Below, in pieces: positions 1,365 to 44,886 of a stretch of 64,000 nucleotides of DNA. This stretch comes from Montifringilla adamsi (Eukaryota > Chordata > Aves > Passeriformes > Passeridae): contig JAGGNK010008781.1 in NCBI GenBank assembly GCA_017590115.1, positions 4,815,371 to 4,879,370 of the forward strand, in the 5' to 3' direction. The notes below the pieces were generated by a model. The model saw nothing but the letters and a program-made list of their open reading frames with translations. It was not told where the DNA came from and searched no databases. Position numbers and translations under genes: made by a program. The stretch's first letter is position 1. Each line of letters starts with the position of its first letter.

Positions 1365-1370
1365 AGGGCA
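1365..1370. repeat. Left target-site duplication (AGGGCA)
   Basis: AGGGCA directly abuts the 5' end of the tRNA-like sequence. Its partner CGGGCA lies at 1862-1867, directly beyond the TG terminus of the LTR. Five of six bases match. A 6-bp duplication is the usual size for beta-like (ERVK-type) retroviral integrations. Confidence 0.6.
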
Positions 1371-1449
1371 GCCTGGTTAGCTCAGTCAGTAGAGCATGAG
1401 ACTCTTATTAATCTCAGGGTTGTGGGTTTGAGCCCTATGTTGGGTGCCA
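1371..1449 (+). pseudogene. tRNA-Lys(CTT)-like sequence with 3' CCA, not functional
   Basis: Read on the plus strand, 1371-1446 aligns along its whole length with vertebrate tRNA-Lys-CTT. The A-box region TAGCTCAGTCAGTAGAGC, the anticodon arm TGAGA-CTCTT...TCTCA, and T-arm GGGTTTGAGCCC are all visible, and CCA follows at 1447-1449. CCA is added after transcription, so its presence in DNA points to copying from a mature tRNA. Three extra bases (TTA/ATT) enlarge the anticodon loop to 10 nt. Most base differences from the functional gene are C-to-T or G-to-A at former CpG sites (for example TTCG to TTTG in the B box). It is very unlikely to make a working tRNA; the T-loop C56 is lost. Confidence 0.85.
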
Positions 1450-1451
1450 GC

Positions 1452-1861
1452 TGTAAAGGCTGATGTCTCTGGACCCTTCAGGTCTGACCCAGCTAGCTCT
1501 GGACCCTGGCCCCTCACAGCCTTTACAAGGAAAAAAGTAAAAGACCTAGAGGTGCTCTTCTCCTCGGGACCAAAAATCCCACAGCTTTATTGTGGAATTA
1601 CTCCAGGGCGTCCGAGATGGGAAAAGAGCAAAGGAGAAGAAGAGGGCGAGGGTCTTGTCCCAGGAGATTTTAATCCCGGGGGAATGGAGGGTGGAGGACA
1701 GGGATGCAAGTGAGGAGGGAGCGAGGGGAGGAGTAAACCTGGAAAACACCACCACCATGGGGCTTTGGGGGGAGAATGGGACAAACGGTGGGATCAGTGC
1801 AAATTGCCAAACACCCAGTGCAAAAACAACAGCTAAATAAACTGTTTAGTGCAATACAACA
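1452..1861 (-). mobile_element. Endogenous retrovirus LTR, beta/ERVK-like, 410 bp
   Basis: Termini read TGTTGT...TTTACA on the minus strand. A TATA-like ATTAAAAT lies at about 1674-1666 and a poly(A) signal AATAAA at 1591-1586, about 80 bp further on. The remaining 130 bp up to the CA end fits R-U5. Within U5 an 11-bp inverted repeat (1452-1462 with 1517-1527) could fold as a stem. The GC dinucleotide and TGGCACCC that follow resemble the primer-binding-site junction of tRNA-Lys-primed viruses. I recognise the type but cannot name the exact family. Confidence 0.65.
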
Positions 1862-1867
1862 CGGGCA
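1862..1867. repeat. Right target-site duplication (CGGGCA)
   Basis: Partner of AGGGCA at 1365-1370, directly outside the U3 end of the LTR. One mismatch at the first base; GGGCA is exact. Confidence 0.6.
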
Positions 1868-2144
1868 GTCTGCCCTGCTCACAGGTGCCCTGCTGTCCCC
1901 ACGGCCACGTGGGACCTGGAGGGACCCGCAGCACCTGTGAGCAGCCACAGCTGGCAGGGCACATCCCAAAGGGAATTGGGCCAGGGATGATCAGCAGGCG
2001 CAGGTCTGAGGGGTCAGCAGGAGCCAATTCCCACGGGGGATCACGCTGCCACCAGCCCAGCTCGGTCCCACACGGAGTGGGAGCAAAACTGGAGCGAATC
2101 CTGGAGCCCCTGCAGGCAAGGTTCCATGTGCTCCCCGCATGTAA
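1868..2144. other. Gene-free GC-rich sequence
   Basis: Single-copy GC-rich sequence between the composite LTR insertion and an AT-rich block. No gene, repeat or motif stands out. Confidence 0.5.
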
Positions 2145-6302: not shown

Positions 6303-6767
6303 GGCTGTGTGGTCCGTGACAATGCCCTGTGTCAGTGCCATGAGAGACACAGTACCCTGGTACGGCATCACAGATGCTCTGTGGAATCCCCAGCTCCAGA
6401 GGGGCAGCTGGAAGGTCGTGGCACCAGTAAGGGGTGGAGTTATGGAGAGAAAACAGCCTGGGTGAGGCTTTCTTCAGCTGGGTGAGGAGAGGGGGAGAGG
6501 GGCAAACTTTGCAAAATCCTGTGGGTGCCATGCGGCTGTGTGGTCCGTGACAATGCCCTGAGTGTGTCAGTGCCATGAGAGACACAGTACCCTGGTACGG
6601 CATCACAGATGCTCTGTGGAATCCCCAGCTCCAGAGGGGCAGCTGGAAGGTCGTGGCACCAGTAATGGGTGGAGTTATGGAGAGAAAACAGCCTGGGTGA
6701 GGCTTTCTTCAGCTGGGTGAGGAGAGGGGGAGAGGGGCAAACTTTGCAAAATCCTGTGGGTGCCATG
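6303..6767. repeat. Tandem duplication of a ~231-bp segment
   Basis: Two head-to-tail copies, 6303-6533 and 6534-6767. They are nearly identical: the second has a 4-bp insertion (AGTG within CCCTGAGTGTGTCAG) and a change from AAGGGGTGG to AATGGGTGG about 130 bp into the unit. The high identity implies a recent event, or a local assembly duplication. The unit carries no gene; overlapping minus-strand frames of 114-122 codons merely repeat each other. Confidence 0.95.
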
Positions 6768-30672: not shown

Positions 30673-31093
30673 AATGTAAATATCCAGCCCCACAGAGCAG
30701 CATCCAACACCACTCTGGGCTGGGAACACCCTTGGGATGCAACTATCCAACCCCACGGAGCAGCATCCACCACCACTCTAGGGCTGGAAACTTTGGGATG
30801 CAGACATCTAGCCCCATGGAGCAGCATCCAGCACCATTCTGGGCTGGAAACTTCTTTGGGATGCAGACATCCAGCCCCACAGAGCAGCATCCAGCACCAT
30901 TCTGGGCTGGGAACACCTTTGGGATGCAAATATCCAACCCCATGGAGCAGCATCCAGCACCATTGTGGGCTGGGAACTTTGGGATGCAGACATCCAGCCC
31001 CATGGAGCAGCACCCAGCACCTTTCTGAGGCTGGGAACACCTTTGGGGTGCAAATATCCAGCCCCATGGAGCAGCATCCAGCACCACTCTGGC
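30673..31093. repeat. 60-64-bp minisatellite, about 7 units
   Basis: Units start at about 30681, 30744, 30805, 30869, 30931, 30991 and 31055, each with CAGCCCCATGGAGCAGCATC, then CAGCACCA and GGGCTGGGAAC. Unit lengths vary between 60 and 64 bp. A minus-strand frame of 534 codons (30258-31862) crosses it, changing repeat register from unit to unit (CSMGLDI, WMLLHGAG, DAAPWGW). All three minus frames of the unit are therefore open and the long ORF is a repeat artefact. Confidence 0.95.
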
Positions 31094-44199: not shown

Positions 44200-44574
44200 A
44201 TCGGGATCGGGGAGCCGGCAGAGCTGCACGGAGCTGCCGCCCGAGCCCGGCTGCGCTGCTCTGCAAGAGTTAAACTGCGCTCGGCATCAGCAGCAGCGGC
44301 AGCAGCGATTCCTGGCAGCACCGGCGGCAGCTCCGCGCAGCGAGGCCCCGAGCGCGGCCTCTGGGGACGGCGCCGATCACATCGCTGCCTGCATGTTTGA
44401 AAACACCGATGTCAGCGAGGCGGCTGCCGGCAGCTCGCTGGCTTTCCTGGCACTGCTGATGGACAGGGTCAGATCCCAGCAGCTGTTGAGGAGGAAGAGG
44501 CGCACTCAGCAGCTGTGCGGAGCGATGGAAACCGCCCGTGATGGTGCCAGCCGCGGTACCGGGCGGCTCCAGCC
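44200..44574. promoter_or_regulatory. CpG-island-like segment
   Basis: Dense CpG (GCACGGAGCTGCCGCCCGAG, CGGCGGCAGCTCCGCGCAGC, GGGGACGGCGCCGATC) over about 350 bp, in contrast with most of the window. In birds such islands usually mark promoters, but no first exon or gene is evident, so it might drive an unannotated noncoding transcript or simply be a GC-rich remnant. Confidence 0.4.
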
Positions 44575-44886
44575 CGGTCCTGCTTTTGGGAGAGATGCTC
44601 TGCCAGCCCAGCATCCCCCGGCCCCGTTTTTGGGAGGGATGCTCTGCCAGCTCAGCATCTCCCAGTCCCGTTTTTGGAAGAGAAGCTCTGCCAGCTCAGC
44701 ATCACCCTGATCCCGTTTTTGGGAGATGCTCTGCCGGCTCAGCATCCCCCGACTCAGTTTTTGGGAGATGCTCTCCCAGCTCAGCATCCCCTGGTCCCGT
44801 TTTTGGGAGATGCTCTCCCAGCTCAGCATCCCCTGGTCCCGTTTTTGGGAGGGATGCTCTGCCGGCTCAGCATCCCCCGGCCCCAG
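44575..44886. repeat. 42-45-bp minisatellite, 7 units, with internal dyads
   Basis: Units begin at the GTTTTTGGGA block at about 44626, 44670, 44715, 44757, 44799 and 44841, after a first diverged unit. Each holds GATGCT-CTGCCAGCTC-AGCATC, a 6-bp inverted repeat around a 10-nt centre, so every unit can form a hairpin. Unit lengths vary between 42 and 45 bp. Confidence 0.95.

Follow-up and report, generated by a model that had tools for sequence, protein, structure and literature searches.

Whole-primer tRNA-Lys copies joined to LTRs: a possible recurrent class of germ-line insertion in a passerine genome

In HIV-1, plus-strand strong-stop DNA normally halts before m1A58 of its primer, tRNA-Lys3, and unmodified tRNA-Lys3 is copied through to its 5′ end, with minor products ending at 55, 54, and 37 (PMC13191261). 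The same source describes extension beyond A58 in cells mutant for the m1A58 methyltransferase and reports that only the shorter plus-strand products are transferable, a full tRNA copy being unusable for second strand transfer (PMC13191261). The read-through product of that system, termed P1, is a close counterpart of an element located in the 64,000-nt stretch of genomic DNA analyzed here (the window): in both, LTR sequence runs into the complement of the entire primer tRNA. P1 is known in vitro and in modification-mutant cells and involves tRNA-Lys3 (PMC13191261), whereas the similar molecule described here, with a tRNA-Lys(CTT)-like primer, appears in the form of inherited insertions.

Three other kinds of element invite comparison. 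Solo LTRs of a putative class II (ERVK/beta-like) endogenous retrovirus share with the window element the LTR family, 6-bp duplications, and a Lys-type primer-binding site (PBS), but the outer end of the window element is the 5′ end of the tRNA instead of the CA of the LTR, and the spacer and PBS are retained. Tailless tRNA retropseudogenes likewise consist of reverse-transcribed tRNA between duplications; they are attributed to LINE1, are truncated on the 3′ side, and have no LTR (Noll et al. 2015, PMC5322556), whereas here the 3′ end of the tRNA joins U5. Helenus TRIMs are also small LTR elements with a tRNA-like sequence; theirs is a family trait, lies inside the LTRs, and lacks complementarity with the PBS (Kojima 2024, PMC10886601), whereas here the tRNA is the primer itself and lies outside the LTR. 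tRNA-Lys SINEs are tabulated for turtles and salmonids (PMC3747384). A literature search, with most subscription journals outside its coverage, returned no report of integrated LTR-whole-tRNA units, and an exact pattern search of viral contigs for extended tRNA-Lys gave 0 matches. In the 1990s, Ohshima and colleagues reportedly put forward a model in which tRNA-derived SINEs originate from strong-stop DNA. The tRNA plus U5-R intermediate postulated in that model corresponds to what the joins described below show; amplification into a family was not seen here.

The window element lies on the minus strand, where an LTR (1861-1452) is followed by the dinucleotide GC (1451-1450) and the complement of a full-length tRNA-Lys-like sequence including CCA (1449-1371). 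The LTR, here named family A, measures 410 bp, has the ends TG...CA, and contains an AATAAA polyadenylation-like signal at 1586-1591 (minus strand). Read on the plus strand, the tRNA-Lys-like sequence (1371-1446) is complete, carries a 3-nt insertion near the anticodon, and is matched end to end by the Rfam tRNA model (RF00005) at 36.2 bits (gathering score, 29), which makes it the sole gathering-level Rfam match within the 64 kb; its alignment with the copy at locus L025 is identical in 64 of 79 columns. CCA, the mark of a mature tRNA, follows at 1447-1449 (plus strand) by sequence reading and alignment. Counted from the CCA, the 18 nt kept by a normal PBS occupy 1432-1449 on the minus strand. 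The GC between the LTR end and the PBS, placed by the same reading and alignment, is an unprocessed spacer. Two hexamers matching at 5/6 enclose the unit, AGGGCA at 1365-1370 adjoining tRNA nt 1 and CGGGCA at 1862-1867 adjoining the U3 end of the LTR. The original prediction had read this layout from the letters, and its coordinates for the LTR, the tRNA complement with its CCA, and the flanking repeat are all correct.

In a 130-nt scan spanning the 90 nt before and the 40 nt after the start of the tRNA, the AGGGCA/CGGGCA pair is the sole match at ≥5/6, and it is placed exactly at tRNA nt 1; the background rate, taken over the first 4 kb, is 0.0045 per position. The insertion ends comprise a 5/6 duplication of family length and a tRNA end from which CA is missing; integrase normally works on a CA end. 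The unit does not fit an ordinary solo LTR, because GC, PBS, and tRNA separate the LTR end from the duplication. A tRNA gene or gene copy was likewise rejected, as CCA is present and is followed by U5 in PBS register; CCA is absent from eukaryotic tRNA genes as encoded. ARAGORN called no tRNA in the window, consistent with the 3-nt insertion, and the anticodon label CTT comes from its calls at three sister loci (C323, C737:2678, and C299). The 64-kb window holds no second copy of the LTR-tRNA element.

Seven nucleotides to the right of the element's duplication, a strong hairpin with the arms TGCTCACAGGTGC and GCACCTGTGAGCA occupies window 1874-1945, and the fold of 1866-1950 has a z-score of -3.36. 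The hairpin weakly resembles Rfam mir-1278 (27.8 bits; threshold, 61) and is possibly an inverted-repeat remnant. Elsewhere in the window, 6303-6767 contains a 235-bp unit in two tandem copies with 97% matches, possibly a recent duplication, and minisatellite-like arrays with units of ~63 and ~44 bp lie at 30674-31092 and 44573-44884, respectively.

A search of the source genome of the window (1.03 Gb, 846 contigs) with window 1371-1861 as query yielded 143 candidates, the best 40 of which were scored, with 51 matches listed. Among the matches listed, 21 begin at query position 90 or earlier; 9 of these begin at 82 (window 1452) and 14 end at 491 (window 1861). The shared starts and ends identify TG...CA at 1861/1452 as a boundary proper to family A and put the family's LTR ends where the original prediction had them. 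The tRNA is reached beyond the 18-nt PBS in three of the 21 listed matches (window, C666, and C74). A provirus-like copy, C222, begins at query 62 (window 1432), 18 nt short of the tRNA 3′ end, and two more (C291 and C535) begin at 71. Family A thus includes proviral copies with a Lys-type PBS and without a longer tRNA match, the tRNA alignment of C222 being not above its shuffles. By duplication length and primer, the family would belong to the class II (ERVK/beta-like) endogenous retroviruses.

Scoring of the tRNA alignment beside the LTR gives 83 for the window and 71 for C666, against 10-15 for the remaining 15 loci, all under their own shuffle maxima. These values cover 17 of 22 loci, placed by an LTR match starting ≤12 nt from the U5 end with enough DNA remaining; C291, C535, C55, and the joins C74 and C117 were left out. 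In ordinary LTR copies, the U5 end runs into the PBS and internal DNA or into host DNA. Inspection by eye of ten ordinary family A copies shows five that are parts of proviruses (three 5′ LTRs with PBS and two LTRs adjoining a polypurine tract) and five solo-like copies, of which three have perfect 6-bp duplications (CTTTCA, ACTATA, and GTAAAT), one a 5/6 and one a 4/6 match.

Two genome searches with tRNA-Lys, using the window copy (12 matches) and the L025 copy (14 matches) as queries, reveal 15 distinct tRNA-Lys-like places. At 12 of them, as judged by eye, the tRNA-Lys continues into the U5 end of an LTR, usually across a 2-nt spacer, so that the genome-wide check for other LTR-tRNA copies suggested with the original prediction adds 11 joins to that of the window. 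Family A accounts for C313 (the window), C666/L009, C74/L010, and C117/L051; family B for C214/L045, C323/L049, and C724/L050; and family C for C737:2431/L046. Family D is joined at C299/L048, with a relative at C737:2678/L047, family E at C368/L052, and family F at C651/L053. At least five LTR families are therefore represented, A to E each backed by its own genome search; A and B are distantly related, and comparison of the families otherwise gives only a 29-bp match between D and F. CCA is retained at 10 of 12 joins and is variant at C214 and C666. At C323 and C724, the tRNA is followed by a U5 or U5-R piece only, with no whole LTR. The Rfam tRNA threshold is reached by the window and 5 of the 11 other joins, and by 0 of 8 control LTR loci.

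Other tRNA-Lys-like places merit mention in their own right. C556 and C652 have CCA-like terminal letters and may be additional joins. C194 (L028 1501-1552), below the Rfam threshold, is a tRNA-Lys copy that ends in the T loop and has a 9-bp direct repeat, AGAAAGTGG, with no LTR seen by eye and a further partial tRNA match ~1 kb away. No functional tRNA-Lys gene was recognized among the 15 places, in a DNA search that skips very common words; either the search missed such genes or tRNA-Lys annotation here would be swamped by viral by-products.

Searches with a join as query for families B, C, D, and E returned 314, 86, 109, and 448 candidates, respectively, and among the best 40 scored in each, the query alone passes the PBS into the tRNA. 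Joins thus appear to be uncommon within their LTR families. The scored lists nevertheless missed known joins, C323 and C724 falling beyond the best 40 of B and C117 beyond the best 40 of A, and the count of joins in this genome is accordingly at least 12. The 5′ reach of the tRNA alignments varies: the window, both C737 joins, C299, and C117 reach nt 1, C323 and C724 reach nt 2, and the shorter copies begin near nt 14, 20, or 34. These features bear on the idea of a SINE-like composite family, built on tRNA-Lys and amplified as one unit, with which the order of tRNA followed by a tRNA-unrelated body agrees, as does the tRNA-Lys common to the copies. The bodies, however, are different LTR families, the start points spread from nt 1 to nt 34, and each of the four family searches found the extension past the PBS in its query only, among the 40 candidates scored. 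No set of copies with one body and one junction-specific mutation was seen among the matches listed. A SINE-like family is thus very unlikely, and a tRNA-derived SINE was rejected on the lack, among the matches listed, of a many-copy shared body behind the tRNA.

Evidence that the tRNA preceded insertion comes from C214. In tRNA sense, this locus reads GTTGGG, a copy of the U5 end starting from the LTR's own TG, tRNA from ~nt 5, a whole LTR, and GTTGGG again. The direct repeat of U5 covers 52 nt (81% identical, E 2e-10), begins at the TG of the LTR, and extends ~11 nt into the tRNA-aligned part. GTTGGG matches at 6/6 outside the unit of U5 piece, tRNA, and LTR versus 0/6 outside the LTR alone, an additional 6/6 match within the U5 piece being treated as chance. 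With a family-length duplication and TG/CA at both ends, C214 has the hallmarks of integrase-type insertion. Ordinary family B copies provide the reference: of 30 loci, 16 passed the end filter, and with the query copy excluded, 11 of 15 show a 6-bp duplication directly outside the LTR at ≥5/6, compared with 2 of 240 cross-locus pairs. Because the C214 duplication lies only outside the whole unit, the tRNA copy was present before integration.

The same locus bears on whether LTRs simply inserted beside existing tRNA-Lys pseudogenes or genes. One truncated tRNA-Lys copy with no LTR seen does occur, C194 with its direct repeat noted by eye. Against such chance neighborhood stand 12 junctions, spread over at least five families, that keep the PBS register (as a rule CCA plus 2 nt), and the C214 duplication, which encloses the tRNA-LTR pair and not the LTR alone. 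On that recurrence and that duplication the explanation was rejected, and we consider it barely credible.

The remaining loci provide duplications of graded clarity. C117 reads GGCACC, a 20-nt U5 repeat (90%, E 7e-4), a full tRNA, an LTR with a nested insert, and GGGACC, the flanks matching at 5/6, with another 5/6 match 83 nt upstream. C666 reads GTGATT, TG with tRNA from ~nt 14, LTR, and CTGATT, a 5/6 match that is the sole one in its scan. At the scanned loci, background rates of 0.003-0.008 per position amount to ~0.4 to 1 chance match per 130-nt scan, so the position of a repeat outweighs its mere presence, and at three loci (the window, C214, and C117) the repeat sits on an independently defined boundary. 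C74 has a 6/6 repeat (GCTGGC) overlapping the 5′ letters of the tRNA. At C368, where family E defines the LTR ends, no duplication was found outside the tRNA; the right flank, CGTGGG, matches at 6/6 inside the tRNA. At C651, where family copies do not fix the LTR ends, the only repeat matches at 5/6 and lies 18 nt away from the beginning of the tRNA; the only such match at C299 lies 24 nt away. The 130-nt scan took in the seven joins with a located U3 end (the window, C214, C117, C666, C74, C368, and C651) and left out C737:2678, where family copies likewise do not fix the LTR ends.

C117 also bears on a different history, in which full-length viral DNA with a tRNA-extended 3′ LTR integrated and LTR-LTR recombination, a common origin of solo LTRs, later left a solo LTR with its tRNA. 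A second, partial family A LTR piece lies ~180 bp to the right at C117 in the same orientation, as a collapsing provirus might leave it, but its outer flank matches the left repeat at only 2/6 by eye, versus 5/6 for the flank of the first LTR. C323/L049, a proviral 3′ LTR preceded by a polypurine tract-like stretch and ending in tRNA and inverted U5 DNA, shows that proviral DNA can meet tRNA copies, and the proviral half of the inspected family A copies is in keeping with this route. A polypurine tract stands, by eye, beside U3 in 0 of 7 joins with a located U3 end, a suggestive point against this route. Moreover, since a whole-tRNA copy is reported as unusable for second strand transfer in the HIV-1 system (PMC13191261), the full-length intermediate should be rare. 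Recombination between the LTRs of a tRNA-extended provirus is, overall, an unlikely origin, although one that retains some weight.

Other loci resemble end-joining products. At C737:2431 (L046, minus-strand orientation, 1142-1313 and 2019 onward), an unusually long host duplication of ~172 bp surrounds the tRNA-LTR unit, meeting tRNA nt 1 on one side and the family C LTR end within 1-2 nt on the other. C724 (L050, L064) has tRNA-Lys and U5 followed by an inverted LTR piece, resembling snap-back strong-stop DNA. Along with the rearranged C323, these loci suggest that LTR-tRNA molecules of the same type underwent end joining. Extended to all joins, this reading has LTR-tRNA duplexes ligated into chromosome breaks, with the short repeats arising as microhomology or fill-in. 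It fits this reading that the tRNA ends of C368, C651, and C299 are not bordered by a clean short duplication and that the tRNA end in the window has no CA. The TG/CA ends of C214 and C117 and their duplications, as long as those at ordinary solo LTRs, speak against it, and the repeats at the window and C666 are likewise of ordinary length. As a general account, end-joining capture is improbable.

We favor, with somewhat better than even confidence, an origin of the window element in failed reverse transcription: the tRNA was read through, and the resulting end product, an LTR-sized duplex, was inserted. In this scheme, tRNA-Lys would prime minus-strand synthesis, and plus-strand strong-stop synthesis would copy U3-R-U5, miss the stop at nt 58 (normally m1A58), and continue along the tRNA as far as its 5′ end or, in other joins, only to ~nt 14, 20, or 34. 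Plus strands that include the entire tRNA would fail in second strand transfer, so synthesis would stop at a duplex of LTR size; the size of the elements would follow from that failure. With end points at nt 1, 2, ~14, 20, and 34, the joins resemble the molecules expected when the m1A58 stop fails. The duplex would then enter the chromosome through integrase at some loci, several acquiring the family's 6-bp type of duplication, and apparently through end joining at others. The original prediction that an LTR plus read-through tRNA intermediate was integrated is accordingly supported: the 11 further joins and the C214 duplication, found outside the unit only, speak for it, with the qualifications that several of the 12 joins have no clean 6-bp duplication or resemble end joining and that a collapsed, tRNA-extended provirus retains some probability.

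The two types of outer end would reflect an additional step. At C214 and C117, the strand may first have jumped from the tRNA 5′ arm to U5, restoring a normal integrase end, whereas in the window the bare tRNA end would have been joined directly to the chromosome. The switch between U5 and tRNA at C214 falls in a GCTAGC-like region, which suggests homology-guided template switching. The window LTR contains a U5 stretch, CCCAGCTAGCTCTG at 1488-1501 (plus strand), that agrees with tRNA-Lys nt 2-15 at 12 of 14 positions, a value reached in 0 of 60 shuffles, and that may represent jump homology; at ten other loci, the agreement is 9-11 of 14, a level that 7 to 59 of 60 shuffles attain and that is therefore within chance.

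These observations, all from one genome, suggest that a dead-end by-product of retroviral copying has entered the germ line more than once. The chances are about even that the joins represent a recurrent kind of germ-line insertion not previously described, namely tRNA-terminated LTRs derived from whole-primer copying, some of which regained an integrase end by a jump from the tRNA 5′ arm to U5, and which would be at once fossils of failed m1A58 stops and the postulated intermediate of tRNA-Lys SINEs. With 12 of the 15 tRNA-Lys-like places found adjoining LTRs, they also carry a warning for the annotation of tRNA-Lys. The modified base m1A58 is relied on to end plus-strand strong-stop DNA, and the fate of DNA extended past this stop has been followed mostly in vitro and in mutant cells. 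Loci of this kind would show that read-through products reach chromosomes and the germ line, would allow the frequency and the tRNA end points of such copying to be counted, and would provide real tRNA-U5 joins, as required by one model of SINE origin.
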